Shown piece by piece: positions 26,761 through 59,781 of a DNA stretch of 64,000 bases. The translations under genes and the position numbers were made by a program. Under the pieces are notes generated by a model that did not search any database, was not told where the DNA came from, and saw nothing but the letters and a program-made list of their open reading frames with translations. The stretch's first letter is position 1. Each line of letters starts with the position of its first letter. This DNA comes from Spirochaetales bacterium (lineage in GTDB: Bacteria > Spirochaetota > Spirochaetia > SZUA-6 > RPPD01), in the NCBI GenBank assembly GCA_016934415.1, contig JAFGSW010000088.1, positions 32,805 through 96,804 of the forward strand, read 5' to 3'.

Positions 26761-27066
26761 CTACGGATAGGACGCGGATGAAGACGGATGAAGGAAGAAG
26801 GGAGGGGAATCAAACGATGAGAGAGAGGTTTCATAGATAATTTAGGTAGAAAAAGAGAAATGTCGTGGATGAAAAGGCAAATTGAAAAACAGTATTATAT
26901 AATAATATGCGAAAATTATAATATTATTTCGATTCGCCAAAATACATATTGAAGTTGTTTACGTGCAAAAAATTATTTCCGCTAAAGTCTTCATTGCTAT
27001 TCGTTTTCCTCATTATTTCATCTTTTTGTTTTTTTAATCTGCGTCCTATCCGCGTAATCCGTAGTT
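26761..27066. repeat. Inverted degenerate-repeat element A
   Basis: Left arm (26761-26791) in the purine-rich sense and right arm (27038-27066) in the opposite sense share units of the form ATCCGYGTNNT (CTACGGATAG versus its complement CTATCCG..CCGTAG). Arms are 25-30 bases and imperfect. About 245 bases of A+T-rich DNA lie between. See the findings for the family. Confidence 0.75.
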
Positions 27067-27093
27067 TTTCTTTTCTACACGCGATTGAAGGCC

Positions 27094-27132
27094 AAAAAAA
27101 ACGGTATGCCTGGACGTCGTAAGAGCATACCG
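27094..27132 (-). terminator. Rho-independent terminator of the Maf gene
   Basis: Perfect eight-base arms CGGTATGC (27102-27109) and GCATACCG (27125-27132), followed on the minus strand by eight T. It lies about 135 bases after the Maf stop, so a long 3' tail is transcribed. Confidence 0.85.
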
Positions 27133-27265
27133 CTTGAACGAGGAACATGAATCATGCCCCTCATTATTTTGGTCGGCAGGCTGGAAAAATTCTTTAGAAA
27201 AAAAATAAAAAACGATCGAGAGAAAAGGTTGTGAGGCGGGAGTTGCTCGCGAAATGCACAATTCA

Positions 27266-29101
27266 TCAGCTCGCGGCGCGCTGGAGAAATGACAGCGCCT
27301 TTTTCAGCTCCGCGATGTGAAAGACGCTCGACCCTTCAAGCTCCCGGTACAACTCGAGCGAATAATCGAGCCACTCCTCGGGCTTGCGTTCGCCGGCGCT
27401 CGTCCGGTTAATCTCCTGGATGAGCGGACCGGCGAGAAAGCCGGCGATGTCCTTGGCGGCCAGATCCCGGATCGCGCGATCGATCTCGTCCAGTTTTTTG
27501 AGTTGGGTTGAGACGGAAACACGCCGGCTGAGGCGTTTCTTCGCTTGCGTCGCCGCCTCGACTCCCGCCCGGGCTGCGGCGGCCGTGCTCTCCAGATCGA
27601 CGGCGATCCGGGCGAGCCCCGTGCGCAGCGATTCGATTTTTTCCGCGGCGTCGGGAGGAGGGGCGAGGAGCGAACGCATCGACCCCATTTTTCCGTCGAC
27701 GGACGGGCGGACGTCGGGGAGGGCGAGGGCGTTCGCGATTCCGGCGGACGGCATGCCTTCGATGCCGACGCCGCCGGGAGAGAGGTTGAAGGTGGCCGTC
27801 TCGGGGTGAAGGCTCATCTGGGTTTCGAACCAGAATTTATAAACAGTCATGCGGTGGTCGGTGAGCACGAGGCCGCCCGCGTTGTCACGGACGGGGAAGG
27901 GCGCGGCCTCGCGCAGGTAAGAATAGGCGCGGCGCTCCTGCGGATCCAGGCGCGAGCTCGTCGCGTGGAACGCCTCCTCGAAGTGCGCGCCGCGAAAATG
28001 CGTCCGCCATCCGGGGAACCCCAGGTCCAGGCCGGCCATGAAAATCGGCGCGCAGCCCAGAGAGCGGGCGCAGTCCCAGGCCGTGGTGGCCACCGACCCG
28101 CCCGCGCCGAGCCTGCCCTTTTCCCCGACGATCGCCTCGAGGGCTCGGCCCAGGGGGAAAATTGAGCTTCCGAAAAACGCGCGCTCACCGAGGATGCGGA
28201 AGATACGGGGGTGTGTGGAGGATTCCGAGACGACGAGGGTCCCGGTTTCCCGCACGGGATCGAGGTGCCGGGTGTTCAAGTACTGCGGGTCGCAGACGAC
28301 CGTAAAATCAGGATCGACGCCGGAGCGTTTGATCGCGGCAAGCGTGGTGTCGACCGCGATGACGACCGCCTTCCGGGAGAGCTCCGGCAGGCGGGGCAGA
28401 ATGTCGTCGAGGGACGGGCCGCCGGCGCAGACTATGGCGGGCAGACCCGAGAAGACGCCTTCGGCCGATCGTATCCCGGGCGCGAGGCAGAGACGCCGCA
28501 CGTTGCGCGCCAGGTTCCTGACCCAGAGCCGCCCGAAGCGCTTGAGCGTGTTCCGGTTCACGTCCCGCTGCCTGAGGAAGGACTGGATGAGGGCGTCGGT
28601 ACGCTCGTAGTAGGCGCGGTCCTTGTCGTAGAGGGAGCGGAGCCTCACGACCTGGACTTTCGACAGGTCGAGGGAGTCGAGGAAACGGATGACGGGCGCC
28701 GTTTCGGCCGCGAGGAAAAACACCGATCGCCGGTGTTCGAACACCGGTGCGAGGTCGCGGGCGGAAAGGGCCTTGAGGAAGCAGCCGATGTCCGGCTCGA
28801 TGACGAGGCAGGGCGCCTCGGGATGGGAGCGGATGAATTCTTCCGGCAGGTAGCCGAGGCCGAATCCGTAGAACACGCCGACGGTCGCCGCCGGGTCGAC
28901 TTCGCGTTCAATGAGCGAGCGGGCCTCCTTCACGGGGTCGCGGCGCGAGTGGACCGAAATGCCGCGGTAGAGGGCGGAGGGCGGCCCGGAGGGCGTGGGA
29001 ACGATTTCGAGGTCATCGCTTGCCCGGAAGCGCTCCAGCGCCTCCTTGAGCTCCGGGATTTTCGAGTTGAGGATTTTCATGTTGGCCGCGAAATAGTCCA
29101 T
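27266..29101 (-). CDS. Maf/DUF115-family motility accessory factor, probable flagellin glycosyltransferase
   Basis: A 611-residue cytoplasmic protein of the Maf family, in which a central DUF115 (MptE-like) domain is used to attach nonulosonic acids to flagellin. The DUF115 core starts near residue 220 with the nucleotide-sugar loop PAIVCAGGPSLDD, continues with VIAVDTTLAAIKRSGVDPDF and VVCDPQYLNTRH, and has the GAGGSVATTAWD segment. The C-terminal ~120 residues are helical. It suggests that the FlaB core flagellins (not in this window) are glycosylated. The start at 29101 is the best ATG but lacks a good ribosome site; 29080 is possible. Confidence 0.85.
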   Translation of the reverse strand: MDYFAANMKILNSKIPELKEALERFRASDDLEIVPTPSGPPSALYRGISVHSRRDPVKEARSLIEREVDPAATVGVFYGFGLGYLPEEFIRSHPEAPCLVIEPDIGCFLKALSARDLAPVFEHRRSVFFLAAETAPVIRFLDSLDLSKVQVVRLRSLYDKDRAYYERTDALIQSFLRQRDVNRNTLKRFGRLWVRNLARNVRRLCLAPGIRSAEGVFSGLPAIVCAGGPSLDDILPRLPELSRKAVVIAVDTTLAAIKRSGVDPDFTVVCDPQYLNTRHLDPVRETGTLVVSESSTHPRIFRILGERAFFGSSIFPLGRALEAIVGEKGRLGAGGSVATTAWDCARSLGCAPIFMAGLDLGFPGWRTHFRGAHFEEAFHATSSRLDPQERRAYSYLREAAPFPVRDNAGGLVLTDHRMTVYKFWFETQMSLHPETATFNLSPGGVGIEGMPSAGIANALALPDVRPSVDGKMGSMRSLLAPPPDAAEKIESLRTGLARIAVDLESTAAAARAGVEAATQAKKRLSRRVSVSTQLKKLDEIDRAIRDLAAKDIAGFLAGPLIQEINRTSAGERKPEEWLDYSLELYRELEGSSVFHIAELKKALSFLQRAAS

Positions 29102-29157
29102 GGCTATGTGGAATTGACTCCTTCCTGAATCACTCCCTCGCTCTGACTTGATCGGGA

Positions 29158-29290
29158 AGGACACGGAGCACACAGAGAGAAGAGGAGTACACGGAGGAAG
29201 AAGAGAAAAGGACTTTATTATATTTTTTATTCAACTTTTTTTCTCCCCTCTGTGTTCTCCGTTTTCTCCGTGACCTCCGTGTCCTTTCAA
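29158..29290. repeat. Inverted degenerate-repeat element B
   Basis: The right arm (29249-29286) is a clean 9-base periodic array of CTCYGTKNN units: CTCTGTGTT, CTCCGTTTT, CTCCGTGAC, CTCCGTGTC. The left arm (29158-29205) carries the opposite-strand version (GGACACGGAG, CACAGAG, ACACGGAGG). An A+T-rich core of about 45 bases separates them. It overlaps the 5' region of the Maf gene and follows ftsI. Confidence 0.8.
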
Positions 29291-29308
29291 ATCTAAGCCG
29301 ATTGGGGG

Positions 29309-31180
29309 TTATTCCAGGGTGAGGACGATTTTCATCCCTTTTTCGATCTTGGTACCGGGCGGTGGATCCTGACGCACGACGTACCCCTGACCATTGATGG
29401 TGACGTCCAGTCCCGCTTTGCCAAGCACGTGGAGTGAGCGCTTGGGGAGACCGGTCAAGTCTGGCAGCTTCTCCCCAAGGACTATCACCGGGGGTTTGGG
29501 GATCCGGATGCGGGCGGACTCGGTGTAGATCGCCTCACCGGCCCTCGGGATGTCGAGGTAACGGATTATCTCCTCGCCGGCCTCTTTAAAAAGGGGCGCC
29601 GCCACCCGGCTGCCCCAGTATGTGCCCTGCCGGGGGTTTTGGACGACGACGTAAAGAATGATCTCCGGTTTTTCCGCCGGGAACAGCCCGATGATCGAGG
29701 CGACATAGTCCTTCTCCGAGTAGCGTCCCGTCGCGGGATCGATCACCTGGGCGGTGCCGGTCTTGGCCGCGACCGTCACGCCTTCGATGTTCGCCTCGCG
29801 GGCCGAGCCGCCCGGCCCGACCGCCGTCACCATCATGTCGAGCATCGCCCGCGCCGTCTCAGGCGAAAGAACGCGGCGCACGGTCTCCCTCGGATAGCTC
29901 TTGAGAACGGTTCGACCGTCCGGGGAGAGGACTCGAAGGACGACGTGCGGCCGGAGAAGGACGCCGTCGTTGGCGAATACCGTGGCGGCGGTCACCATCT
30001 GAACCGCTGAGACGGAGATTTCCTGGCCGAAGGCGATGGTCGGCTTGGAACGGGCCGACCATCGGTCGGGCGTCGCGAACACCCCGTTCGATTCGCCGGA
30101 AAAATCGATTCCGGTCTTTTGCCCGAAGCCGAACAACCTCAGCCGGTTGTCGAACGCCCGGGCCCGGATTCGATCCGAGGCGTACGCCGCTCCGGCGTTG
30201 CACGAGTGTTGAATGATCCTCTGCGCGTTGACGTCCCCATGCGCGCTCAAGCATTTGATTTTAATCTCCTCGCCCGAGGGCAGGATTTTCTCATAGTAGC
30301 CGCTGCAATGAAATAAATCGTCCGCGGTCATGGCGCCCGCCTCGAGCATGGAGGAGAGGCTGAAGATCTTCATGGTCGAGCCAGGCTCGTAGGCCATGAG
30401 CGCCGGGCGGTTCATGCGGTCGCTCGCCGAATACGTGGCGTATTCATTGGGGTCGAAGCGGGGGATGGAGGTATAGGCGAGGACCTCCCCGGTCCGGGCT
30501 CCCATGGCGAGGATCATGACCGACGAAGCTTCGGTGTCCTTGTAGGCCTCGAGGGCGAGCCGGTCCATAAAATACTGAAGCTTGATGTCGAGGGTGAGGA
30601 CGACCTGATTGCCGTAGACGGTGCCGCCCGCGGACGGGATTTTAGGAGACAGGTCGTCGTCGAAGGTGTATTCGATTCCGGCCAAGCCGACGTTGTCGAC
30701 ATTGACGTGCCCGACCACATGGCAGCCGAGCTCCCGCTTGGGGTAGATCCGCCCCGGTTTGGGTTTGAGATAGATGCCCTTCAGTTTATCGTCCTTCTTA
30801 AGGGCATTGATTTTGTCCGAATCGGCGGGCGTGATCTGGTGCTTGAGGACGATCGATTTGCTCGTACTCTGTAATTTGAGAAGCAGGTCGGCGCGGCCGA
30901 CCTGGAGGATGGGCGCGAGGAGGGATGCCGTTTCGGACGGCTCCTCGACGTGCGGCATCCAGGCTTCCACCGAGTAGAGCTCGGGTTGGAGCGCGAGCTC
31001 CTCGCCATTGCGGTCGAAGATGGGCCCGCGCTCGACCGCGGGCCGGGGCTTGACGTCCTCGCCGGCGTCCGACGGAGACACGACCATGATGACGAACAGG
31101 TAGACGACGAGGACGAGGGCGATGACACCGAGCCCTCCCATGAAGGCGAAGAGCCGGAACCTGGCCCGTTTGTCCCTCAC
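29309..31180 (-). CDS. ftsI: Peptidoglycan transpeptidase FtsI/PBP2x type with C-terminal PASTA domain
   Basis: A 623-residue class B penicillin-binding protein. One transmembrane helix (about 12-33) anchors it; a dimerisation/pedestal domain follows, then the transpeptidase domain with nucleophile Ser268 (EPGSTMKIF), SCN (326-328) and KTG (473-475). Residues ~555-623 form a PASTA domain (PKRSLHVLGKAGLDVTINGQ). It crosslinks septal peptidoglycan. PASTA on FtsI is common in Gram-positive and some spirochaete proteins. The start is GTG overlapping the lepB stop as GTGA, so both are coupled. Confidence 0.93.
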   Translation of the reverse strand: MRDKRARFRLFAFMGGLGVIALVLVVYLFVIMVVSPSDAGEDVKPRPAVERGPIFDRNGEELALQPELYSVEAWMPHVEEPSETASLLAPILQVGRADLLLKLQSTSKSIVLKHQITPADSDKINALKKDDKLKGIYLKPKPGRIYPKRELGCHVVGHVNVDNVGLAGIEYTFDDDLSPKIPSAGGTVYGNQVVLTLDIKLQYFMDRLALEAYKDTEASSVMILAMGARTGEVLAYTSIPRFDPNEYATYSASDRMNRPALMAYEPGSTMKIFSLSSMLEAGAMTADDLFHCSGYYEKILPSGEEIKIKCLSAHGDVNAQRIIQHSCNAGAAYASDRIRARAFDNRLRLFGFGQKTGIDFSGESNGVFATPDRWSARSKPTIAFGQEISVSAVQMVTAATVFANDGVLLRPHVVLRVLSPDGRTVLKSYPRETVRRVLSPETARAMLDMMVTAVGPGGSAREANIEGVTVAAKTGTAQVIDPATGRYSEKDYVASIIGLFPAEKPEIILYVVVQNPRQGTYWGSRVAAPLFKEAGEEIIRYLDIPRAGEAIYTESARIRIPKPPVIVLGEKLPDLTGLPKRSLHVLGKAGLDVTINGQGYVVRQDPPPGTKIEKGMKIVLTLE

Positions 31181-31734
31181 GGTGAGACCTCCGGACGGCC
31201 CGTCGGCTCGGTTCCGGGCAGGGAGCGCGGCGGCGGCGGGAAGAGTACGGCGCCCAGGAGGCGGTCTGTCGCGACCGGCCCGTACGTGCGCGAATCGGCC
31301 GAATGATCCGGGTTGTCGCCGACGAGAAAAACGGTGCCCGGCGGCACGGTGAGCGACTCGCCGATCGCGGCTTCCTGGTAATATTTGAGGGGAATGCGGC
31401 GTCCGCCGAACTCAAGCTCGTGCCCGACCACGCGCAAGGCGTCGCCCGCCACCGCCAGGCAACGCTTGACGGCAAGCCTACCGTCCTCGGGGTTCCTGAA
31501 CACGACAACGTCGGCGCGGGCCGGACCTCCCCAGCGAACAAGAAAAGCGCCGTGAAAAGGTTCGGACAGGCCGAAAGCCAGTTTATTGATGAAAATGGGG
31601 GTCCCCTCCTTGAACGTCGGCTCCATCGACCGACCGCGTACGACAATCATATCAAGGAAAAACAATTTTGTCATGATGAGGAAAAAGGCAAGGGCGGCGA
31701 TGAGGGCGATGAGCGATCGCGTGGTCCTGTTCAT
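31177..31734 (-). CDS. lepB: Signal peptidase I
   Basis: A 185-residue membrane peptidase that removes signal peptides of exported proteins. After one transmembrane helix (about 7-28), the catalytic Ser36 lies in RGRSMEPT and the general-base Lys90 in AVKRCLAVAGD; box E is present as GDNPDHSADSRTYGPV. Length is at the short end for Gram-negative LepB (no second transmembrane helix). It shares an operon with ftsI, an arrangement not required by function. Divergent to the M23 peptidase gene. Confidence 0.95.
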   Translation of the reverse strand: MNRTTRSLIALIAALAFFLIMTKLFFLDMIVVRGRSMEPTFKEGTPIFINKLAFGLSEPFHGAFLVRWGGPARADVVVFRNPEDGRLAVKRCLAVAGDALRVVGHELEFGGRRIPLKYYQEAAIGESLTVPPGTVFLVGDNPDHSADSRTYGPVATDRLLGAVLFPPPPRSLPGTEPTGRPEVSP

Positions 31735-31884
31735 GAAACGTACATTAATAGTAATACGCCCGCATTATTATGTCGATATCACAAGTGAGAGCGGCGTCCG
31801 GCGCCGGAGGGACGATGCGGACCCCGGTTGAGGGAAACGGGCCGTTCTCTCGATTTTACCGGCACACGCGTGCCGGCCGTACGG

Positions 31885-33021
31885 ATGCGGGAAAAGGAGA
31901 AGCGTATTTCGCGCGTTATGATCAACGCCACGCTGAAACAGACCGTCGCCAGACGTCCGAATCAGAAGCCCGCCGCCCGCTTCAAGCTGCTCGTGGACGG
32001 GCGCGTCAGGGGAGTGTGGGAAAAGAGGGCGGCCGTTCCCAGGCTCGTCACGCATCGTCCAGTCGGTACAAAGACGAAGAGTCGCTTTCACCGGCTCCGC
32101 GCGCTTCACCCGGTGTTCATCGCCGCGGCCGCGGCCTGCCTCCTTGCCGTGCTCGTTTTATCGTACTTTCTCTTCAGGCCCGTTCCCGTCGGCCCGCTCG
32201 AGCTGCCGGCCGCCCGGCACGTGCTCATGGAAGGGTTGGGCGGCGCGGAAGCGGATGACGACTCGACCCCGGACGATGCGGGTCCGCTCGTTCTCAAAAA
32301 ACTTATACTATCCGACTATCGCGTCAAGCGCGGCGATTCTCTTCCCGCCATCGCCAAAAAGATGAACGTCAGCGTGGACACCCTCATCAGCTTCAATGCC
32401 ATCACCGACGCCCGGCGTGTAACCCCGGGCACGAAGCTTTCCGTCCCCAATCATTCCGGCCTGCGCTACCGGGTGAGGCGGGGCGATGCGCTCTCTCTCT
32501 TGAGCCGGAGGTTCGGCGTCAGCCTCGACGACCTGCTCGACTGGAACAATCTCAAGCGCTCGGTCATTACGGTGGGGCAGACTCTTTTCATTCCGGACGG
32601 ACGGCTGGGGGCCGCCGCCGTCAGCAAAGTGCTCGGAACGCTTTTCGCCTGGCCCGCCAAGGGCAGGATCAGTTCGTATTTCGGTCAGCGGGTGAGTCCC
32701 ATCACCGGGAGAAAATCGCACCACAATGGACTCGATATCGCCAACGACCCTATGACCTCGGTAAAAGCCGCCGCGGACGGACGGGTCGCGCGGGTGGATT
32801 ACAACCCCACCTACGGCAACTATATCATCTTGGTTCACGGCAATGGCTTTCAAACGCTGTACGGCCACCTGAAGAAGATCTACGTCAAGCGGGGGCGGGA
32901 GGTCGCCCAGGGCACGAAGATTGCGGCCATGGGAAGCACCGGTTCGAGCACCGGCCCGCATCTCCATTTTTCGATATTCAAGAACGGCCGGGACGTCGAC
33001 CCGCTCAAGTACCTGCACTGA
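31885..33021 (+). CDS. LysM/M23 peptidoglycan endopeptidase
   Basis: A murein hydrolase or division/shape factor of the LytM group. From the ATG at 31885 (378 residues): a cytoplasmic basic N-terminus, a membrane helix (about 75-97, VFIAAAAACLLAVLVLSYFLF), two LysM domains (DYRVKRGDSLPAIAKKMNVS and YRVRRGDALSLLSRRFGVS) that bind glycan, and a C-terminal M23 domain. The zinc ligands are intact: HHNGLD (His, Asp) and PHLHF (His). It should be an active endopeptidase. Start is uncertain (31885 or 31918), and an in-frame ATT with ideal AAAAGGAG spacing lies between them. Confidence 0.88.
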   Translation: MREKEKRISRVMINATLKQTVARRPNQKPAARFKLLVDGRVRGVWEKRAAVPRLVTHRPVGTKTKSRFHRLRALHPVFIAAAAACLLAVLVLSYFLFRPVPVGPLELPAARHVLMEGLGGAEADDDSTPDDAGPLVLKKLILSDYRVKRGDSLPAIAKKMNVSVDTLISFNAITDARRVTPGTKLSVPNHSGLRYRVRRGDALSLLSRRFGVSLDDLLDWNNLKRSVITVGQTLFIPDGRLGAAAVSKVLGTLFAWPAKGRISSYFGQRVSPITGRKSHHNGLDIANDPMTSVKAAADGRVARVDYNPTYGNYIILVHGNGFQTLYGHLKKIYVKRGREVAQGTKIAAMGSTGSSTGPHLHFSIFKNGRDVDPLKYLH

Positions 33022-33048
33022 CGATACCGGGCGGTCACTGGGTTTTTA

Positions 33049-33077
33049 TTGTAAAAAGTTGCGGCCTGATATATACT
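33049..33077 (+). promoter_or_regulatory. Sigma-70 promoter upstream of the membrane protein at 33252
   Basis: TTGTAA (33049-33054) and TATACT (33072-33077) with a 17-base spacer. The predicted leader is about 165 bases and G+C-rich, with no gene in it that I can support. Confidence 0.55.
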
Positions 33078-33251
33078 TTGGGGCGCCCTCATGGATGAGG
33101 GACCTCGCGGCAGAAGATGCGGCTGCGAAGCGGGAACGGCAAAAAGCGGAGGGGGACGATCCGGGAAGCGCGTGCGTTTCCGGACCAAAGCGGGATCGCC
33201 GCCGGCACGGCCGGGACGGCCCGCCATTTCATCGTCGGCAAGGAAGAGTCT

Positions 33252-34304: not shown

Positions 34305-34361
34305 GTTCCTGAGCCGCTTCGAGTCTATGAACTCCTATCTTCTCATCAAACGAAAAGAAGA

Positions 34362-34498
34362 AAAATAAGGAAACCAGGAATCCAGGAAAACAGGAGAAGA
34401 TATAGAAAATGCTCTAAAATAGTTACTATCAATATTTTTCCATCGGACTTTACTGTTTTCCCATTTTTTCTTTCCTGGTTTCCTGGCTTCCTTATTGA
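34362..34498. repeat. Inverted degenerate-repeat element C
   Basis: Left arm (34362-34395) AATAAGGAAACCAGGAATCC and right arm (34470-34498) with the complementary series TTCCTGGT, TTCCTGGC, TTCCTTATT: an 8-base unit TTCCTGGY. Arms match at about 25 of 30 positions. The core (34396-34469) is A+T-rich. It lies between two convergent genes. Confidence 0.78.
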
Positions 34499-34586
34499 TT
34501 TTTATTATTTCTTGCGAAGAAGCGTCTATATTCAGGCTTGAAGTGATAATAAGGCAATGAGGGAAATTCGTGTGCCGGCCGGCGTC

Positions 34587-34994: not shown

Positions 34995-35116
34995 GGACAA
35001 CCTCTTTGTTTGAATCGAATATAGCGCAATTGACATGCCGAGTCAATGTTTTCGGCGCTGAACTGAAAAAAAAGAAGCGGTTTCGAGCCTCACACCGGCT
35101 TGCGGGAGGGCGCCCG

Positions 35117-40795: not shown

Positions 40796-40823
40796 GGAAA
40801 ATCTTCGGTTGGACGAGGAAGAA

Positions 40824-41012
40824 GAGAGCGAACCACGGATTGGCACTGATGAGACGGATAACACGGATGTGAAAAAATGAATAGAAGAAAAGGGAAAAAA
40901 CAAAGAAAAAAATAACTGAAAAAAAAAGAAAATAAAAGTATTTCCAGTCAAGAATTCTTTTCTCTTCTTTATCCGTGCCATCCGACTTATCCGTGTCCAT
41001 CCGTGGTTCTCT
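40824..41012. repeat. Inverted degenerate-repeat element D
   Basis: Left arm (40830-40870) has AACCACGGAT, GGCACTGAT, GACGGAT, ACACGGAT; right arm (40970-41008) has ATCCGTGCC, ATCCGACTT, ATCCGTGTC, ATCCGTGGT at a 9-base period. Arms can pair along about 35 bases across an A-rich core of 100 bases, and CTCTTTTTTT follows the right arm, so secA transcripts could end here. Confidence 0.85.
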
Positions 41013-41032
41013 TTTTTTCCCGGAGCGCATCT

Positions 41033-49748: not shown

Positions 49749-49792
49749 TTTTTCACTTCGTGTTCTTCGTTTCCTTCGTGAGCTTCGTGTCC
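49749..49792. repeat. Solitary degenerate-repeat arm (element E)
   Basis: A single 9-base periodic array CTTCGTGTT, CTTCGTTTC, CTTCGTGAG, CTTCGTGTC, oriented like the right arms of elements A-D. No matching left arm is seen in the 17 bases back to apt or elsewhere nearby. It is preceded by a short T-run that might end apt transcripts. Confidence 0.7.
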
Positions 49793-49866
49793 TCTTCCGA
49801 CAACGATGTCGGGTGCATCGTCATTATAAAATCATATCAGAATTGCCGCAAGGTCTTGAGCGGCTC

Positions 49867-50258: not shown

Positions 50259-50261
50259 GCC

Positions 50262-50594: not shown

Positions 50595-50609
50595 TACGGA
50601 GGAATCGAT

Positions 50610-50864: not shown

Positions 50865-50877
50865 CCGATCTCGACCG

Positions 50878-52513: not shown

Positions 52514-53682
52514 AGGAACGGTCTTCCAAGAGTACCATTTTCCTGATCCTGATCATTGCGGTGGCGGCGGCCGCAATCATCGTCGCGATTGTATTCATTC
52601 GCACCAATTCGGTTGAGGAACGGGTGAAAAAAGGACAAGCCATCAACGCCCTGTTCACCGTTCGGGAAGGCGGCCGCCTCAAGCTCATCGAGGTGCTTCT
52701 TTTTCAGCCCGCGTCGAAGAAGGCGGTTATTCTTTTCCTGCCCCAACGGACGTGGCTCATGCTCGAATCCCTCAACCGGTATGACACGCTAGAAACGCTG
52801 TATGTTCCGGGGAATCCGGCGCGCCTGCGCGCGAAAGTGGCGGAAATGATCGGCGTGCCGATCCAGTATTCGATCGATTTCGACGCGGACGGCCTCAGGG
52901 ACTTGGTCGACCTCATGGGCGGGATCGAGGTATTTGTTTCATCGACCGTCGACAAGCAGAGCGGCGGCCGGAGATATCTTTTCGATTCGGGAAGCGTTCT
53001 CCTTGACGGAGATAAGGCGACGGACTATTTGTCGCTCGACCTGGATAATGAAAGCGATATGGATCGGGTGCAGCGCAGACAGGATTTCCTGAAATCGCTG
53101 ATAGAGTGCCTGGCGAAAGGCGAAGCGAGCGGGTTTCTATCAAAACCGGGCGTGTTCGGCGCCCTGCAAAAAACGATGCGTACCAACCTGTCAGCGCAGG
53201 AACTCGGGACGTATTTGTCAAAGCTGCAGGATCTCAATCTCGAGAGTATCCTCTACCGCCGCGTGCACGGCACGACGAGGATGCAGAACAAAGAGGAAAT
53301 CTACATTCCGAACGACCAGGGAGAACAGCTGAAAAAATCTATGCAGCAGGCGGTGGAATTTCTGCAAAACAACCAGTTGCTTCGTCCGGAGGATCTGGTG
53401 GTAAATCTGGAGATCCTCAACGGCACCGACATCGCTTTCCGGGCCCGGGACTGCGCCCGCATTTATAAAAAGTACGGGTATGAAGTGCTCCGGGAAGACA
53501 ACGCGCCGGAAAAACCCGAAAAAAAAACCGTCGTCATCGACCACCGGGGCAATCAAAGACTGGCGCAGGAGATCGCCGCCGTCATCAAATGCCGGAACAT
53601 CGAAACCTCGGCCGGGGACAAGACGGCGGCGGATATAACGATCATATTAGGAATGGATTTTGATGGACAATACTGCCAATAA
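52510..53682 (+). CDS. LytR-CpsA-Psr family protein with LytR C-terminal domain
   Basis: A 390-residue protein with one membrane helix (about 8-29) and an extracytoplasmic LCP domain: QRTWLMLESLNRYDTL, VDLMGGIEVFVS, and DMDRVQRRQDFLKSL carry the conserved Arg/Asp positions. A LytR_C domain follows (about 290-385, VNLEILNGTDIAF). LCP enzymes transfer lipid-linked glycopolymers to peptidoglycan; in spirochaetes the acceptor and glycan are not established. GTG start overlaps yqeK stop. Placed between yqeK and rsfS as in Firmicutes. Confidence 0.88.
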   Translation: MKERSSKSTIFLILIIAVAAAAIIVAIVFIRTNSVEERVKKGQAINALFTVREGGRLKLIEVLLFQPASKKAVILFLPQRTWLMLESLNRYDTLETLYVPGNPARLRAKVAEMIGVPIQYSIDFDADGLRDLVDLMGGIEVFVSSTVDKQSGGRRYLFDSGSVLLDGDKATDYLSLDLDNESDMDRVQRRQDFLKSLIECLAKGEASGFLSKPGVFGALQKTMRTNLSAQELGTYLSKLQDLNLESILYRRVHGTTRMQNKEEIYIPNDQGEQLKKSMQQAVEFLQNNQLLRPEDLVVNLEILNGTDIAFRARDCARIYKKYGYEVLREDNAPEKPEKKTVVIDHRGNQRLAQEIAAVIKCRNIETSAGDKTAADITIILGMDFDGQYCQ

Positions 53683-54040
53683 GCCGCTCGGACGGAGACA
53701 GGCGCTCGAAATGGCCGCGCTCATCGACGACCACAAGGGCGAAGGCACCGTCGTTCTCGATGTAACCGGCGAATGCGCTTTCGCGGATTATTTCATCATC
53801 ACCACCGCGACGAGCTCGCGGCACGCGGCGAGTCTCATCGGTTTTGTGACTGATTTTCTCACGGAATGGTCAGCGCCGGTGCTCAATAAAAGCCGCACTG
53901 CCGATAAGTCGGGTTGGGTGCTCTTGGATTGCGGCAATGTCATTGTCCACGTGATGGACAGCCAGACGCGGGCGTTTTATGAATTGGAAAAACTCTGGTT
54001 CAGAGCGACGCCGTTGGTCTACTCGTCGAAATCGTCGTAA
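53663..54040 (+). CDS. rsfS: Ribosomal silencing factor RsfS
   Basis: A 125-residue RsfS/YbeB protein. It has the signature VVLDVTGECAFADYFIITTATSSRH and the C-terminal GWVLLDCGNVIVHVMD. It binds L14 and blocks 30S-50S joining when nutrients are scarce. The ATG at 53663 lies inside the 3' end of the LCP gene with AGGA upstream. Its end overlaps the acidic gene on the other strand by 22 bases. Confidence 0.95.
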   Translation: MDNTANKPLGRRQALEMAALIDDHKGEGTVVLDVTGECAFADYFIITTATSSRHAASLIGFVTDFLTEWSAPVLNKSRTADKSGWVLLDCGNVIVHVMDSQTRAFYELEKLWFRATPLVYSSKSS

Positions 54041-54378
54041 TCGAGATCGTCGTCGTCTTCCAAATCTTCGTCTTCGATGAATTCCTCGTCGTCTTCGAAG
54101 TCGTCGAGGTCTTCCTCTTCTTCCTCTTCCTCTTCTTCCTCTTCGATATCTTCTTCCTCGACTTCGTCGTAGTCTTCCTCGAATTCACCTTCTTCTTCGT
54201 CCAGGTCTTCGTATTCGTCCTCGAAGTCGTCGTCGTATTCGCCTACTTCGCTGTCTTCGTCAGCGTCCTCGCTCTCCTCCTCGAATTCATCCTCTTCATC
54301 GTCATCGTCGTCGACGGCCGCACGGAAGAGATCATGCTCGATCAATTCTTCCCGAAGCTCATGCTGGCGCGTAAACAT
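54019..54378 (-). CDS. Extremely acidic low-complexity protein
   Basis: A 119-residue protein: a normal start MFTRQHELREELIEHDLFRA followed by about 95 residues almost wholly Asp and Glu with some Tyr and Phe. Such tracts mimic nucleic acid, bind basic proteins or mark RNA-polymerase delta-type factors, but no domain is present to choose. The DNA is a GAA/GAG/GAC trinucleotide tract prone to length change. The ATG at 54378 has AAGGAA upstream. It ends inside rsfS in convergent orientation. Confidence 0.6.
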   Translation of the reverse strand: MFTRQHELREELIEHDLFRAAVDDDDDEEDEFEEESEDADEDSEVGEYDDDFEDEYEDLDEEEGEFEEDYDEVEEEDIEEEEEEEEEEEDLDDFEDDEEFIEDEDLEDDDDLDYDDFDE

Positions 54379-54465
54379 AATCGTTTCCTTCCCCCTCATC
54401 AATAAAATATACGTTTTCTCGCACTCAACTCTAAGCAGTTTGCAATATTATTGTCAACAGTTTTT

Positions 54466-54966
54466 TCAGCTTTTTTTCCGTTCCTTGATGCCGACGTGGA
54501 GGACCGCACTCCCGAATCCGCCCCGAACGAAGGAAACATACTCCACCTCGGCCGACGTCCCGAGATCAGGAACGACAGAGTCGCCGGTGAACACCGTGGG
54601 AGGCGACATGCTGCAGTCCACGGCCTGCCGAGAAAGCACCATAAGCGCGCGGCCGGTGATCTGGTTGGCGAATTCTCCGATGGTCGACTTGGCCAGGTCG
54701 CCGAATCCTTCTTCCTCCGGGGCAATGTTTTGCGCGGAAAAGAGTCCGCTAGCCTCGAACAGCAACCCGACCATGGAACGGGCGCTTTCGAAATCGAGCC
54801 CGAAAACTATATTCCCCCGCAGGTCGCCCGATATTCCCATGGTGGATACGACCTGCAGCTTATTGGAATTCTTCCCGGCGGGTTCGACCAGGTCGATCGG
54901 AATCGAGTTTTCTCGGAAAATATCACATAGTGCCTCGTTGAACGACGACGCGATCGGGTCTGCCAT
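54466..54966 (-). CDS. cheX: CheX-type chemotaxis phosphatase
   Basis: A 166-residue protein of the CheC/CheX family. It has a GNIVFGLDFESARSMV segment and the phosphatase helix STIGEFANQITGRAL with the conserved Glu and Asn three positions apart. CheX dephosphorylates CheY-P; in Borrelia it is the dominant phosphatase. The ATG at 54966 is preceded by GGGAG. No other chemotaxis genes are in this window. Confidence 0.88.
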   Translation of the reverse strand: MADPIASSFNEALCDIFRENSIPIDLVEPAGKNSNKLQVVSTMGISGDLRGNIVFGLDFESARSMVGLLFEASGLFSAQNIAPEEEGFGDLAKSTIGEFANQITGRALMVLSRQAVDCSMSPPTVFTGDSVVPDLGTSAEVEYVSFVRGGFGSAVLHVGIKERKKS

Positions 54967-55026
54967 ACCGCTCCCTGGATTCTTAAGGTTTGTGAATCCC
55001 CTGCCGGACCGGGCCGGAACCACTAG

Positions 55027-55056
55027 AATATAGGTTAATCCAGAAATAAAAGTCAA
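55027..55056 (-). promoter_or_regulatory. Sigma-70 promoter of cheX
   Basis: TTGACT (55051-55056) and TATATT (55027-55032) on the minus strand, 18-base spacer; leader of about 55 bases. Confidence 0.68.
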
Positions 55057-55134
55057 ACAGAATTCTCATGCGCCGGGCGGCGCTGTGCGGAAAAGAATGA
55101 GAATGAAGTCGGCGGGAAAACGGCCACCGACTGC

Positions 55135-55164
55135 TTGTCAAACCGCCGCTTCTTCATTTATCAT
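55135..55164 (+). promoter_or_regulatory. nadC promoter abutting the start codon
   Basis: TTGTCA (55135-55140), 18 bases, TATCAT (55159-55164). The -10 box ends ten bases before the ATG at 55175 and overlaps an earlier ATG at 55163, which argues that 55175 is the start. No Shine-Dalgarno site. NadR/NiaR-type operator not recognised. Confidence 0.6.
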
Positions 55165-55174
55165 GACGCCGCGT

Positions 55175-56011
55175 ATGAACAAGGAAATCAAGGAATTGAT
55201 CGCTTTGGCCCTTCATGAGGATTTCGGACAAGGGGGAGATATCACCTCCGAGGCCGTCTTTTCGAACGAATCGGTGCGCGCCGTGCTTCTCTCCAAGGAT
55301 ACGGGCGTGCTCGCCGGCGCCGAGATTTTTTCGGCCGTTTTTGAAACCCTCGATCCGGAGATACGGGTGGCGTTTCTCGTGGCGGACGGCGAGGAGATCA
55401 GCCCCATGAAGGAGGTGGCCGTAATCGAAGGCAAGGCGCGTCCGATCCTCGGGGGGGAACGCACGGCGCTCAATTTCATCAGATTCCTGTCCGGCATCGC
55501 CACCCAAACGCGCAGATACGTGATCGAGGCCCGAAAATACGGGCGGACCCTGATTCTCGACACCCGGAAAACCCTGCCGGGCTTCAGGGCCCTCTCCAAA
55601 TACGCGGTGCGCATGGGAGGCGGACAAAACCACCGCCTGGGGCTGTTCGACATGGCGCTCGTCAAGGACAACCATAGCGACGCCGCAGGTACGCTGCGGA
55701 AGGCCGTGGAACGGGTACGGCTGAAGTGGGGGACGAAATATCGTATTGAAGCCGAGTGCCGGAACGCCGACGAGGTGCGGCAGGCCATCGAGGCCGGGGT
55801 CGATACGATCATGCTCGACAACATGGGAATCGAACCGTTACGGGAAGCCCTGCACCTCATTCGCGGCCTGATTCCGGTGGAAATATCCGGTCGGGTGACG
55901 TTTCCCGACTTGCGTGAGCTCGTTCCCCTGGGGGCCGATTTCATTTCCGTCGGTGCGCTCACTCATTCCGTCGAGTCCTTTGACTTTTCGCTTGAGATGA
56001 GTGTACTTTGA
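55175..56011 (+). CDS. nadC: Quinolinate phosphoribosyltransferase (decarboxylating)
   Basis: A 278-residue type II phosphoribosyltransferase that converts quinolinate and PRPP to nicotinate mononucleotide, CO2 and PPi. Motifs include HEDFGQGGDITSE at the start, LDTRKTLPGFRALSKYAV with the catalytic Arg/Lys, GGGQNHRLGLFD, and the phosphate-binding DTIMLDNMG. Start discussed under the promoter. First gene of nadC-nadA-nadB. Confidence 0.95.
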   Translation: MNKEIKELIALALHEDFGQGGDITSEAVFSNESVRAVLLSKDTGVLAGAEIFSAVFETLDPEIRVAFLVADGEEISPMKEVAVIEGKARPILGGERTALNFIRFLSGIATQTRRYVIEARKYGRTLILDTRKTLPGFRALSKYAVRMGGGQNHRLGLFDMALVKDNHSDAAGTLRKAVERVRLKWGTKYRIEAECRNADEVRQAIEAGVDTIMLDNMGIEPLREALHLIRGLIPVEISGRVTFPDLRELVPLGADFISVGALTHSVESFDFSLEMSVL

Positions 56012-56074
56012 TTCCGGCGGCCGTGATTGCCGTTACGGCGGGCGAACGGCGGAGGAATCGAGGATAACGGGGAC

Positions 56075-57109
56075 ATGGAAACCATCACGGAGATCGTCCG
56101 ATTAAAAAAAGAATACGGCGATAAACTCTGTATCCTGGCTCATTACTACCAACGGGACGAAGTGTATCAATTGGCCGATTTTTCGGGGGATTCATACCAG
56201 CTTGCGCTGGAGGCTTCGCGTTCGGGCGCCGGGCACATCGTCTTTTGCGGCGTTACCTTTATGGCCGAAAGCGCAAGGATCCTGGCCCGACCCGAGCAGC
56301 GCGTGTACCTGCCCGATCGCGAGGCCGGCTGCCCGCTGGCGGACATGGCGGATGACCGTGAGCTCGCCCCGGCGCTCGAAGAAATCCAAAGGACGTGTCT
56401 TCGACCGATTGTCCCCGTCGTCTACATCAACTCCACCGCCTCTCTGAAGGCCGCGGTTGCGAAAGCCGGCGGGATCGTCTGCACTTCGTCCAATGCCGCC
56501 CTGCTCGTGAGATCCCTGCTGGCGGAGGGGAATGCCGTTCTCTTCCTGCCCGACCGGAATCTCGGACTCTCCGTAGCCGGCCGTATTCCGCTCTCCAAGG
56601 ACGAAATCGCGTTCTTCGGACGAGAGACGGACGGTCCGGAGGTGACGTCCGCCGCGCGAATGATCATCTGGGACGGGTTTTGCAATGTCCACGTGCGTTT
56701 TACGGCAATGGACGTCATGAAAGCCAAGAATCAGTATCCGTCCGCCAGGGTTTTCGTCCATCCGGAATGCCGGGAGGAGGTCACCTCACTCGCCGATTAT
56801 GTCGGCTCCACCTCCGGGATCATCCGGGAGTGCGAGAAAGCCGCCGCCGGCGAGGTGCTTTTCATCGGCACGGAGCTGAACCTCGTCGAGCGCCTGGCCG
56901 CGGCGCGGAAGGATGCGAAGATATTTCCGCTCAGGCGCTCGGGCTGCTTGAACATGAACAAGATTACGCCGGAGAAAGTCCTGGCCGCGCTCCGCTCCAT
57001 GAACGGCCCGTCGTCGCCGTACGAGGTGTTTGTGCCGGAGGAAGAAAGCGCACTCGCCGTCCGCGCCCTGCGGGGCATGATCGAGCGGGTCGAGCGGGCA
57101 AAGGAGTAG
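56075..57109 (+). CDS. nadA: Quinolinate synthase
   Basis: A 344-residue [4Fe-4S] enzyme that condenses iminoaspartate with dihydroxyacetone phosphate. The three cluster cysteines appear in FCGVTFM, HPECREEV and SGCLNMN. ILAHYYQRDEV and FVGDS-like DFSGDSYQLA are substrate-binding signatures. The ATG at 56075 lies 63 bases after nadC. Cluster loss by oxygen makes the enzyme typical of anaerobes or low-oxygen life, but it is also found in aerobes. Confidence 0.95.
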   Translation: METITEIVRLKKEYGDKLCILAHYYQRDEVYQLADFSGDSYQLALEASRSGAGHIVFCGVTFMAESARILARPEQRVYLPDREAGCPLADMADDRELAPALEEIQRTCLRPIVPVVYINSTASLKAAVAKAGGIVCTSSNAALLVRSLLAEGNAVLFLPDRNLGLSVAGRIPLSKDEIAFFGRETDGPEVTSAARMIIWDGFCNVHVRFTAMDVMKAKNQYPSARVFVHPECREEVTSLADYVGSTSGIIRECEKAAAGEVLFIGTELNLVERLAAARKDAKIFPLRRSGCLNMNKITPEKVLAALRSMNGPSSPYEVFVPEEESALAVRALRGMIERVERAKE

Positions 57110-57111
57110 AT

Positions 57112-58695
57112 ATGACCGCCCAGGTCGGCCCGCGTCGGGAATTCGACGTGCTTGTCATCGGCAGCGGCATTGCCGGTCTCGCCGCCGCGCTCGCGGCCGC
57201 CGGGGAGGGCCGGTCGGTGGCCGTCGTATCCAAAGAAGGCGAGCTTTCGGAATGCAACACGAATTACGCCCAGGGAGGAATCGTCTACCGCGGGGAGGGC
57301 GGGATCGAACTCCTCGAGCGGGACATCGTGTCCGCCGGCTGCGCCATTAATTTCGGTGAAGCTGTCCGCGTCGTGTGCGAAGAAGGCCCGCGGGCGATCG
57401 AAGACATTCTCATTCGAAAATCACGGGTCTTGTTCGATCCTGACGGCGCGGGAGGACTCGACCTCACGCAAGAAGCGGCGCATTCGACGCGCCGGATCAT
57501 CCACGTCAAAGACCACACCGGCGCCGCCATCGAGAAAGGGCTCTTGGGACAGGCCGGACACGTCGACCGGATCGCGTTTTTTACCGGCCACTGCGCAGTC
57601 GATCTCATCACCAACAGCCACCATGCGCGCCTTCCCGAAGAGCGGTACCGGCCGACGCGGGTGATCGGCGCGTATGTTTTCGACGAGCGGCGGGAAGAGG
57701 TGAGCATATTTTTCGCACCTCGCGTCGTACTCGCCACGGGCGGCGTGGGAAACCTCTTCCTTCACACCTCGAACACGCCCGGCGCCTCGGGGGACGGAAT
57801 CGCCATGGCGAACAGGAGCGGGGCGGAAATCATCAACGCCGAATACGTCCAGTTTCACCCGACCATCCTGTACCATCGCGACGTGAAGCGCTTCCTGATC
57901 AGTGAAGCCCTCCGCGGGGAGGGCGCGCGGCTCATGAACAGGCGGGGGGAGTATTTCCTGGAGAAATACAATCCGGCTATGAAAGACCTTGCCCCGCGCG
58001 ACGAGGTGGCGCGCGCAATTTTCTACGAAATGGAAGCCACGGACGCGGGGTACGTGTTCCTGGACGCGCGGCAGGTGTCGCGCGTCGATCTCAAGACGCG
58101 CTTTCCGAGCATCGCCCGCCAGTGCCGGGAGATTGGGATCGACATTGCCCGCGAGCCCATCCCGGTTGTGCCGGCGGCGCATTATTTCTGCGGCGGGATT
58201 AAAGTCGACCTTTCGGGCCGCACGAACATCCCCGGGTTGTACGCGGTCGGAGAATCGGCCTGCACGGGAGTGCACGGCGCGAACCGATTGGCGTCGGTTT
58301 CCCTGCTGGAAGGGCTCGTGTGGGGCACGCGGGCCGGCCGGGACGCGGCCTTGAGCGGGCCGGCCGGAGACGACGCCGTCCGGACGGACATCCCCGACTG
58401 GATCTCGCCGCGGCCGGAGGAGGAGATCGATCCGGTGCTTGTCTATCAGGACCTGCATAACATCCGCTCCACCATGTGGAACTATGCCGGGATCGTGCGC
58501 AATCGCAAGCGTCTCGCGCGCGCCCTTTCCGATTTCAATTACCTGTCGCACCGCGTGGAGAAATTCTACCGGCAGGCCCGGCTGACCCGGACGATCATAG
58601 AGCTGCGGAACGCCGTGCTGACGGCCTCCCTCATCATCCGCGCGGCCCAGGCGAACCGCGACTCACTCGGCTGTCACTTCGTCGAAAAAGGGTAG
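57112..58695 (+). CDS. nadB: L-aspartate oxidase
   Basis: A 527-residue flavoenzyme that oxidises L-aspartate to iminoaspartate. The FAD Rossmann motif VIGSGIAGLAAALAAAG is at ~15-31; ATGGVGNLFLHTSN, PTILYH and the capping-domain ACTGVHGANRLASVSLLEGL complete the site. Fumarate or oxygen can be the electron acceptor. ATG 57112 is two bases after the nadA stop with AAGGAG. A longer frame extends upstream through nadA but is not the gene. Confidence 0.95.
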   Translation: MTAQVGPRREFDVLVIGSGIAGLAAALAAAGEGRSVAVVSKEGELSECNTNYAQGGIVYRGEGGIELLERDIVSAGCAINFGEAVRVVCEEGPRAIEDILIRKSRVLFDPDGAGGLDLTQEAAHSTRRIIHVKDHTGAAIEKGLLGQAGHVDRIAFFTGHCAVDLITNSHHARLPEERYRPTRVIGAYVFDERREEVSIFFAPRVVLATGGVGNLFLHTSNTPGASGDGIAMANRSGAEIINAEYVQFHPTILYHRDVKRFLISEALRGEGARLMNRRGEYFLEKYNPAMKDLAPRDEVARAIFYEMEATDAGYVFLDARQVSRVDLKTRFPSIARQCREIGIDIAREPIPVVPAAHYFCGGIKVDLSGRTNIPGLYAVGESACTGVHGANRLASVSLLEGLVWGTRAGRDAALSGPAGDDAVRTDIPDWISPRPEEEIDPVLVYQDLHNIRSTMWNYAGIVRNRKRLARALSDFNYLSHRVEKFYRQARLTRTIIELRNAVLTASLIIRAAQANRDSLGCHFVEKG

Positions 58696-58708
58696 GGGAG
58701 GGCGGCCC

Positions 58709-59602
58709 GTGCCCACCGAAGCGACCTTCATCGTCGATGCGCCGGCAAAGATAAACATTCACCTGGAAATCATGGGAAGCAGGCCGGACGGTTATCATGA
58801 ACTGCGGTCGCTCTTTGCGGCGGTGGACCTGGCCGACCGCCTGCACGTCACGATCGGAGCGCCCGATGAAGGGGATCGTCTGCGGGATCTGATCGGGGGA
58901 GTGGACGATCGGCGCAACACCGTTGTCCGGGCCGTCGAACTCTTCCGCCGGGAAACGGGATCGTCCCGCGCCGTCGCCGTAAAAGTGGAAAAGCGGATTC
59001 CACTTGGCGCCGGCCTGGGCGGCGGCTCGAGCGACGCGGCGGCGATGCTCAAGGTCCTGAACCGCGCCGCCGGTTTCCCGCTTACGAAGGAAGCGCTCAT
59101 CCTGCTGGGCGTCGAGATCGGAAGCGACGTCCCCTTTTTCCTCGCCGGCGCCTGCGCCGTCGTCGAGGGGCGGGGGGAGCGGGTGCTGCCGGTACGAAAC
59201 GGGCCGCGTATCGCGATGGCGCTGGTTGTACCGGATTTTCCGGTCGGCACGGCCGAAGCCTACCGCTGGTTGGACCTCGAAGAGCCCGATTTCCCGCATA
59301 AAACTCTCTCTCGCGATGATCTCATCCGGGCATTTCTGGAAGAAACGCCTGAGAGATGGCGTTTCTTCAATTCGTTTTCAGCCGTTCTTTTTGAACGATA
59401 TCCGCTTTTTACCCGTTTGGAAGCCGGATTTCGGAAGGGGGGCGCTCTTTTTTCAGGCGTCTCGGGAAGCGGTTCTTCTTATTTCGGTGTATTCCCCGGC
59501 CGACGGGAGGCGGAGGACTGTCTTGCAGAAATCGAAGGATCGTTTCGATTCGCCGGGGTGGTGGAAACCCTCTCGGGATTGCCGCCGGTCGTCCCGGTGT
59601 GA
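58709..59602 (+). CDS. ispE: 4-diphosphocytidyl-2-C-methyl-D-erythritol kinase
   Basis: A 297-residue GHMP kinase of the non-mevalonate isoprenoid pathway. Motif 1 DAPAKINIHLEI, the ATP loop PLGAGLGGGSSDAA (~94-107) and motif 3 SGVSGSGSSYFGVF are all present. It shows that isopentenyl diphosphate is made by the MEP route. The start is GTG with GGGAGG upstream; 13 bases after nadB. Confidence 0.95.
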   Translation: MPTEATFIVDAPAKINIHLEIMGSRPDGYHELRSLFAAVDLADRLHVTIGAPDEGDRLRDLIGGVDDRRNTVVRAVELFRRETGSSRAVAVKVEKRIPLGAGLGGGSSDAAAMLKVLNRAAGFPLTKEALILLGVEIGSDVPFFLAGACAVVEGRGERVLPVRNGPRIAMALVVPDFPVGTAEAYRWLDLEEPDFPHKTLSRDDLIRAFLEETPERWRFFNSFSAVLFERYPLFTRLEAGFRKGGALFSGVSGSGSSYFGVFPGRREAEDCLAEIEGSFRFAGVVETLSGLPPVVPV

Positions 59603-59623
59603 TGTCTTCACGAACAGCAAGCC

Positions 59624-59781
59624 AAAAAACAGAGGACACCCCTCGACTACGCTCGGGGCAGGCTCCGGAAACGAAGAACACATAGAAGAAGAGAAAATGG
59701 TCGATATATCTGGAGAAAAAAACCACCTTTTTCAATTCCTCTCCGTGTGCTCCTCCTCCCTCCGTGTTCCCTGTGTCCTCC
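59624..59781. repeat. Inverted degenerate-repeat element F, interrupted
   Basis: Right arm (59736-59781) CTCCGTGTG, CTCCTCCTC, CTCCGTGTT, CCTGTGTCC; left arm (59628-59695) with CAGAGGACAC, AAACGAAG, AACACATAG, but split by a 28-base foreign insert. A core of about 40 bases lies between. Same family as elements A-E. Confidence 0.75.
59641..59668. repeat. Short hairpin repeat inserted in element F
   Basis: CCTCGACTACGCTCGGGG followed by CAGGCTCCGG: a small hairpin (7-bp stem with one wobble). It resembles the short CGACTACGCTCAGG-type repeat seen in many environmental bacterial genomes; I state this from recollection. It breaks the left arm of element F, so it arrived later. Confidence 0.55.

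Follow-up and report, generated by a model that had tools for sequence, protein, structure and literature searches.

Rpn proteins (YhgA-like, PF04754) are PD-(D/E)XK-type nucleases. These recombination-promoting nucleases have been linked to DNA mobility (PMC5350276) and have also been reported as anti-phage toxin-antitoxin genes (PMC10327210). In REPIN/RAYT systems, short, high-copy palindromic intergenic repeats are paired with a gene which they flank, and movement in trans has been proposed for them (PMC3116915, PMC2817692). A set of intergenic inverted elements was analysed here in a window of 64,000 nucleotides from a Spirochaetales bacterium. These hairpins are likely to belong, as MITE-like members without a gene, to a family of mobile elements which at full length carry a GxxExxY gene, the encoded nuclease recognising the units and mobilising both forms. 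The element is small, is found across many phyla and is apparently undescribed.

Six inverted places had been proposed in the window from a sequence-only reading, and each was compared with 1,000 dinucleotide shuffles. Inverted arms were clearly significant at four of them: 26755-27072 (2/1000 shuffles as good), 29155-29293, 34360-34500 and 40820-41016 (0/1000 each). The signal at 59620-59785 was weak (19/1000) because the left arm is broken by a CCCCTCGACT..GGGG repeat, and 49749-49792 carries a single right-type arm, which is a good family-C match as a tandem array but for which 460/1000 shuffles were as good as an inverted pair. The degenerate units of about 9 bases, with 8 bases in one type, were recovered as described: units of A (CACGGATNN), B (CACGGAGNN) and C (CACGAAGNN) are 9 bases long, those of family D (CCAGGAAN) 8 bases. 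All six places lie between ORFs, as had been claimed.

Arms of the six elements of the window, with the core of element 1.
Feature	Coordinates	Strand	Basis
Element 1 left arm, family A' (AACTACGGATAGGACGCGGATGAAGACGGATGAAGG)	26759..26793	+	Matches arm of GxxExxY element L250, same genome
Element 1 right arm, family A' (AATCTGCGTCCTATCCGCGTAATCCGTAGTT)	27036..27066	-	Shuffle test; L250 arm comparison
Element 1 A+T-rich core	26794..27035	.	GxxExxY remnant not found
Element 2 left arm, family B (CACGGAG/CACAGAG units)	29157..29199	+	Shuffle test
Element 2 right arm, family B	29246..29286	-	Shuffle test
Element 3 left arm, family D, 8-base units (AATAAGGAAACCAGGAATCCAGGAAA)	34364..34390	+	Arm type as in GxxExxY element L252, same genome
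Element 3 right arm, family D	34471..34496	-	Shuffle test; L252 arm comparison
Element 4 left arm, family A (AGCGAACCACGGATTGGCACTGATGAGACGGATAACACGGAT)	40827..40868	+	Shuffle test
Element 4 right arm, family A	40971..41012	-	Shuffle test
Element 5 single arm of right type, no left arm; CTTCGTG units of family C	49756..49793	-	
Element 6 left arm, degenerate, B/C type, broken by CCCCTCGACTACGCTCGGGGCAGGCTC	59631..59690	+	
Element 6 right arm (CTCCGTG units)	59738..59779	-	

Pattern searches, in which elements were taken as stretches, were carried out on the whole spirochaete genome. Exact TCCGTGNNNTCCGTG occurred 74 times against 0 for the reversed pattern, three TYCGTG(N3) units with up to 2 mismatches 156 times against 1 for the control, and TTCCTGGNTTCCTGG, one mismatch being allowed, 141 times against 0. 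When the matches listed were merged, at least about 150 array regions were obtained, with 0-1 matches for the control pattern. Four main unit families, CACGGAT, CACGGAG, CACGAAG and CCAGGAA, are laid out as inverted arms, and the unit type differs among arrays inside this one genome. Hairpins of like kind are present in many bacterial phyla. The sequence-only reading had staked its proposal on such recurrence and had mentioned related arrays in other environmental genomes; they were found in many. In the literature searched, the unit strings were found in no relevant paper. Among the hairpins of the spirochaete genome the arms are alike, the cores are unrelated and near-identical recent copies were not found, so that activity in this genome may be old, or copying may leave the core behind. 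Nested elements exist. The arrays are also targets for other mobile DNA: a group II intron and other palindromic repeats are inserted in or near hairpins, and contigs end at intron-in-array junctions, the arrays breaking up assemblies.

Two GxxExxY ORFs of the same genome are enclosed by such arms, L250 by A' arms (AACTACGGATAAGACGCGGAT..) and L252 by D arms. Elements 1 and 3 of the window share their arm types with L250 and L252, respectively. Two encoded GxxExxY proteins match the curated family models over their full length, TIGR04256 of NCBIfam with 144.7 and 133.6 bits (cut-off 35) and PF13366 of Pfam with 138.6 and 126.7 bits (cut-off 22). Inverted tandem 7-mers were present on both sides at 37/59 PF13366 loci and at 1/59 control windows taken 350-680 bp further out (Fisher p about 1e-13); in this set roughly one gene locus in three scored no arrays. 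An independent Planctomycetota set gave 21/25 flanked loci against 0/25 controls (p about 4e-10), with one matching array per side, close to the start and stop codons. The spirochaete genome holds eight GxxExxY gene matches, several of them broken, and in its 93%-complete assembly an intact cognate gene turned up for A' and D alone among the families, with none for A, B or C. That the hairpins are decayed GxxExxY genes was rejected, since a profile search of the window and of 100 loci of the genome returned no remnant. The gene, which sits in the full-length versions of these elements, had been missed by the sequence-only reading.

The GxxExxY protein is a single 125-aa PD-(D/E)XK nuclease domain in which the catalytic D, ExK and QxxxY residues are invariant or nearly so among 10 diverse members. 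The fold predicted by AF2 (pLDDT 90) has Cas4 SSO0001, lambda exonuclease and LHK-Exo as its best PDB matches; this predicted fold resembles Cas4 and lambda exonuclease, and the PD-(D/E)XK site is intact. The literature searched mentions the family in passing only and does not describe the array-bounded element. Against the PADLOC defence models, two GxxExxY members gave nothing at E<=1. The gene was present in 0 phage records and in 8/72,556 plasmids, and 2.9 million viral contigs yielded 39 hairpin stretches and 2 degenerate gene-pattern matches. A phage vector was rejected, since the viral collections contain almost no hairpins or genes.

PF13366 was found in 27/30 hairpin-bearing genomes from many phyla, a strong enrichment over the window's phylum (72/296 genomes) and over Planctomycetota (96/199); the remaining 3/30 were without a match. 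Within the window's phylum, PF13366 occurred in 12/18 genomes with arrays as against 60/278 others (p=1e-4). Hairpins and gene of one genome had a unit in common in 7/21 genomes, compared to 2.4 after shuffling (p=0.002). The unit co-varies with the protein: on the protein tree the last unit base requires 4 changes as against 15.4 when shuffled (0/300), bases 4 and 5 follow the tree with 1/300 shuffles each, and base 2 has no protein-tree signal. A 47-row protein tree gave 2 changes against 15.1 shuffled. Host groups are mixed on the GxxExxY tree, yet the unit tracks the protein across phyla; for example, a spirochaete and a Flavobacterium have related proteins that both go with a CGCAAAG unit.

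Gene and arms are also either both there or both missing at orthologous sites. The Flavobacterium map/methyltransferase spacer is empty (19-27 bp) in 11 sampled species, measures 512-514 bp with a CACAGAG-type GxxExxY element in 3 others, and in a further four holds a different element, of CACGAAT type, at a length of 522-548 bp. A single stretch of about 500 bp, with the gene and both arms, is thus either wholly there or wholly missing. In Sphingomonas an element lies between fabD and fabG and has an element-free counterpart. A hairpin-only site is also variable between species. Comparison of filled and empty sites revealed neither a target-site duplication nor an exact junction: in Flavobacterium the spacer is largely replaced and the closest filled and empty species are too diverged, and in Sphingomonas a direct pairwise alignment, filled site against empty one, gave no clean junction.

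From the association, the variable sites and the co-variation, we infer that the nuclease probably reads the unit of its own element and moves full-length and gene-less elements alike. A full-length element of about 430-550 bp would comprise an array, one GxxExxY gene and the same array inverted, the words being 7 bases long, element-specific, spaced at a pitch of 8-10 bases and of the general form C-R-C-N-R-A-N. The protein may bind these units sequence-specifically, its specificity lying in word bases 4, 5 and 7, bring both arms together, cut at or near them and move the element. Gene-less hairpins would be moved in trans, and insertion would be completed by host repair. Cut-and-paste, copying by repair, or cutting of ssDNA or hairpins are candidate chemistries. 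Counting against this proposal, we know of no PD-(D/E)XK protein that transposes DNA alone. The options of non-autonomous mobile elements or protein-binding arrays given by the sequence-only reading came close to this explanation, to which the GxxExxY-bearing full-length elements are added, with binding and movement as its putative steps.

The strongest competitor, although an unlikely one, is that the arrays are chromosomal binding sites of a regulatory or architectural protein, GxxExxY being that protein or regulated by it, and that nothing moves. It would account for intergenic, repeated arrays, for units conserved without conserved base pairing, and for co-variation of protein and unit. 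It fits poorly with a block of about 500 bp, gene and both arms included, that is present or absent at a conserved spacer with two lineages at one site, with unit types that vary in one genome and track a protein tree on which host groups are intermingled, and with the nested elements. Slightly less probable again is a GxxExxY gene that is a passenger, having merely entered, as safe sites, hairpins made or moved by other machinery. Gene-free hairpins are indeed far commoner in the spirochaete genome than the gene, and the group II intron and other palindromic repeats insert there as well. A passenger, however, would not be expected to have a unit that tracks its tree, nor does a matching array on each side of the Planctomycetota genes, near start and stop codons, suit one.

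That the hairpins act as RNA (terminators, processing sites or small RNAs) selected in place is very improbable, even though they are intergenic, long imperfect hairpins can form, and some Flavobacterium sites are occupied in nearly all the species sampled, now by one hairpin family, now by another. Arms of the same element were no more alike than arms of other elements of the same family, both in family A (n=18; 30.75 vs 30.92, p=0.62) and in family D (n=20; p=0.57) by permutation test, and hence base pairing is not the feature being maintained. Each unit has two free bases that are unmatched between arms, which makes an RNA hairpin role unlikely. Presence/absence variation and the lack of any Rfam family at gathering threshold at the eight loci tested point the same way. 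The same test overturned the earlier claim of a better match within elements, an appearance that arises because the arms share a family, and within-element gene conversion or template switching was not supported. A CsrA/RsmA sponge, considered since CACGGATG resembles a CsrA site, was discarded on reasoning: GGA is missing from the CACGAAG and CACGAAT families, and units occur on both strands. Least probable of all is mobilisation of REP-like hairpins by a tyrosine transposase (Y1_Tnp), despite the similar logic of such systems, whose repeats are likewise small, palindromic and intergenic and have been proposed to be mobilised in trans (PMC3116915, PMC3733652). The sole Y1_Tnp gene of the genome has no arrays in its flanks (score 3.3), so that the earlier suggestion of a RAYT-type mobiliser is not supported, and the ends of the elements are tandem arrays, not single tagged REPs.

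Over these alternatives we favour the GxxExxY-mobilised element, and lean, with somewhat more reserve, towards a pan-bacterial class of transposable elements whose sole enzyme is a 125-aa Cas4-like PD-(D/E)XK nuclease that reads terminal tandem 7-base words, co-evolves with the word and mobilises numerous gene-less hairpins. If true, TIGR04256/PF13366, present in between roughly a quarter and half of the genomes in the two sampled phyla, would acquire a function and a genetic context, and a very common, so far unexplained class of intergenic hairpins in environmental genomes would acquire an origin. Mobility that depended on a single-domain PD-(D/E)XK nuclease as the only enzyme would represent a new principle of transposition, and the natural matched protein-word pairs, in which word base 7 follows the protein clade, would offer a ready recognition-code experiment.

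Among known systems, MITEs of bacterial IS are alike in that gene-less hairpins share terminal inverted repeats with a gene-bearing partner in the same genome; here the partner encodes no known transposase, the ends are repetitive arrays, and a target-site duplication was not identified. The element-encoded proteins are members of TIGR04256 (PDDEXK_3, PF13366), a family model that carries no functional description. Cas4, lambda exonuclease and RecB-type nucleases share the predicted fold and the D-ExK-QxxxY residues, whereas GxxExxY lies in its own array-bounded element, with no CRISPR, phage or recombinase partner seen. Rpn proteins share the PD-(D/E)XK type and the link to DNA mobility but belong to another Pfam family, and to our knowledge their genes are not flanked by inverted arrays. 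REPIN/RAYT also combines high-copy short palindromic intergenic repeats with a gene flanked by them. Its enzyme is an HUH/Y1 transposase and its end a single hairpin with a GTAG tag, whereas GxxExxY is a PD-(D/E)XK nuclease and its elements, found in many phyla, end in tandem 7-base words at a pitch of 8-10 bases.

All six places in the window lie between ORFs, as the sequence-only reading had claimed. That they are inverted elements held in part when all six were read directly and set against 1,000 dinucleotide shuffles per stretch: four have strong inverted arms, one has weak arms and one is a lone arm. The window belongs to contig C18 in a 4.06 Mb assembly (102 contigs, 93% complete). A search of the whole genome, proposed earlier as a check, found arrays far above control: exact TCCGTGNNNTCCGTG occurred 74 times against 0 in the reversed control, a triplet of spaced TYCGTG words, at most two mismatches allowed, 156 times against 1, and TTCCTGGNTTCCTGG, at most one mismatch allowed, 141 times against 0. 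Among the matches listed, merging gave about 150 array regions, and 100 were taken for closer study. Simple clusters were pairs of left and inverted right arms of the same family (D, of 8-base units, 12; A, C and B, of about 9-base units, 11, 5 and 4). Nesting of families also occurs, for example A outside A' outside D.

Arrays and neighbouring features (L, stretches examined; C, contigs of the window's genome; a slash marks a junction)
Feature	Location	Observation
Element 1 (family A')	window 26761-27066	strong inverted arms
Array	window 29158-29290	strong inverted arms
Element 3 (family D)	window 34362-34498	strong inverted arms
Array	window 40824-41012	strong inverted arms
Element 5	window 49749-49792	single arm, no partner
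Element 6	window 59624-59781	weak inverted arms; left arm broken by another repeat
Repeat CCCCTCGACTRCGCTCGGGGCAGGCTCCG inside B/C arms	window 59640-59667; L077, L078, L094, L116	right behind first B/C unit, GGACA/CCCCTCGAC..
Group II intron 3' end	L071:31-107 (start of C19)	RF00029, 28.9 bits, E 3.5e-4, below gathering score 40
Intron-in-array stretches	L071, L065, L073, L089, L104	ends of C18, C19, C26, C51, C66; ...GATTCTACCCG/GACGGATGAACACGGAT
Palindromic family, ~175 bp, GTCATTGCGAGG...CCTCGCAATGAC	L031:754-929; L034:466-641	window's genome
Tandem repeat, ~21 bp, GCGACAAAGAATTCAATCG	L049:867-1172; L081:198-575	
Shortened GxxExxY frame	L200:5198-5831	Calditrichia; continues into seeming ComM/YifB-type Mg-chelatase-like gene (by eye)

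Other repeats lie within these arms. At five contig ends the intron 3' end directly adjoins a family-A array at an identical position; a multi-copy group II intron seems to enter family-A arms repeatedly, breaking the assembly there. The repeat inside the B/C arms is placed as if targeted.

Arms had been said to match better within one element, pointing to conversion or template switching. Likeness within elements was no higher than between elements of one family (A, p=0.62; D, p=0.57), which removes that argument. As the cores also differ from copy to copy, with none in common in the window's genome, what is conserved is the repeated 7-base word of the arrays, and neither base pairing nor the entire copy.

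Genes for GxxExxY proteins (TIGR04256/PF13366, 125-aa PD-(D/E)XK nucleases) are frequent in repeat-rich environmental genomes, which prompted a test of their position relative to arrays. The window's genome has eight PF13366 matches, several being fragmentary. The ORFs L250 and L252, both intact, are flanked by inverted arms (AACTACGGATAAGACGCGGAT... and AAGGAA..CCAGGAA, respectively) of families also seen as hairpins, i.e. array pairs without a gene; these arm types recur in window elements 1 and 3. A profile search found no GxxExxY remnants in the gene-less hairpins of the window or in 100 loci of this genome. A motif-free flank score was used, in which any 7-mer could count if it recurred every 8-11 bases beside the gene and recurred likewise, inverted, on the other side. 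It reached the threshold of 7 at 37 of 59 GxxExxY loci but in just one of 59 control windows placed 350-680 bp farther away (Fisher p~1e-13). At independent Planctomycetota loci arrays were present on both sides in 21/25 against 0/25 controls (Fisher p~4e-10), and mismatched-pair controls concur (13/31 and 14/27 loci at the 99th percentile). The automatically called words were mostly of the form C-R-C-N-R-A-N, the pitch was 9, 8 or 10, and gene-bearing elements had a median outer-to-outer length of 465 bp.

The word varies together with the protein. On a tree of 62 proteins, of a quick type with many weak branches and with some words set by eye where the automatic call was rotated or reversed, the last base required 4 changes against 15.4 in shuffled data (0/300); bases 4 and 5 also clustered (1/300 each) and base 2 did not. 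The first set, of 47 proteins, gave 2 changes against 15.1. Host groups are mixed on the 62-protein tree, with fewer changes than the shuffled mean (28 against 36), so host lineage may account for part of the clustering, but not for pairs such as the spirochaete and the Flavobacterium that both have CGCAAAG. The co-variation would be most simply explained if the protein recognised the word.

Related arrays, mentioned earlier for other environmental genomes, proved widespread. The complete-hairpin pattern (a pair of units, then 60-90 bases, then an inverted pair) was found in at least 119 stretches of one-genome-per-species contigs. Hosts among the matches listed include Bacteroidota, several proteobacterial classes, Acidobacteria, Planctomycetota, Chloroflexi, Verrucomicrobia, Lentisphaerae, Kiritimatiellales, Cyanobacteria, Nitrospirae, Nitrospinota, Omnitrophota, Calditrichia, Ignavibacteria, FCPU426, spirochaetes and others, with isolates of Azospirillum, Flavobacterium, Mucilaginibacter and Geothrix; words include CACGAAG, CACGGAT, CACGGAG and CACGAAT. 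PF13366 was present in 27 of 30 genomes picked for a hairpin (one weakly), compared with 72/296 in the window's phylum and 96/199 in Planctomycetota. Within the window's phylum it was enriched in array genomes (12/18 against 60/278, kinship and genome size ignored). Of 21 genomes, 7 carried one exact word on both hairpin and gene, where 2.4 would be expected (p=0.002); likeness by the softer Hamming distance was not significant (p=0.15).

Presence at a given site differs between species. The Flavobacterium spacer between map and a methyltransferase gene (names given by eye) is 19-27 bp in 11 sampled species. In three sampled species it holds an element of 512-514 bp built with CACAGAG-type words, in four others one of 522-548 bp whose words are of CACGAAT type, and in two an unrelated palindromic repeat. 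At a hairpin-only site before a crp-like gene, family and presence differ by Flavobacterium species, and in Sphingomonas one species has an element between fabD and fabG that another lacks. Genes beside elements were co-directional on 120 of 156 sides, a modest excess over operon expectation. In five Flavobacterium stretches (L415 and L416; L451, L459 and L460), intergenic sites used by 9-base elements hold palindromic families unrelated to these (CCTGCAAGGTTTTCAAAACCTTGTAGG; TCACATCGAGCGGAGTCGAGATG); such sites would be shared insertion hot spots.

The data agree with a mobile element that would consist of array ends and a single nuclease gene, the gene-less hairpins being its putative MITE-like relatives. 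Against mobility, no recent copies were found in the window's genome, neither junction nor target duplication was legible at the filled and empty sites compared in Flavobacterium and Sphingomonas, and the 93%-complete assembly has no intact cognate GxxExxY gene for families A, B and C. Word binding, cutting and the insertion route are putative steps. Array-bounded GxxExxY elements were not found described in open-licence PMC papers, and the element is thus novel as far as that literature is searchable.

GxxExxY members score far over the TIGR04256 and PF13366 cut-offs, and D, ExK and QxxxY are among their invariant or nearly invariant residues. They are almost absent from phages and viral contigs and few on plasmids. 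PADLOC models gave no match for two members, and no solved structure related by sequence was found. In the AlphaFold2 model (pLDDT 90), the predicted fold is nearest to Cas4 SSO0001 (E 7e-4), lambda exonuclease and LHK-Exo.
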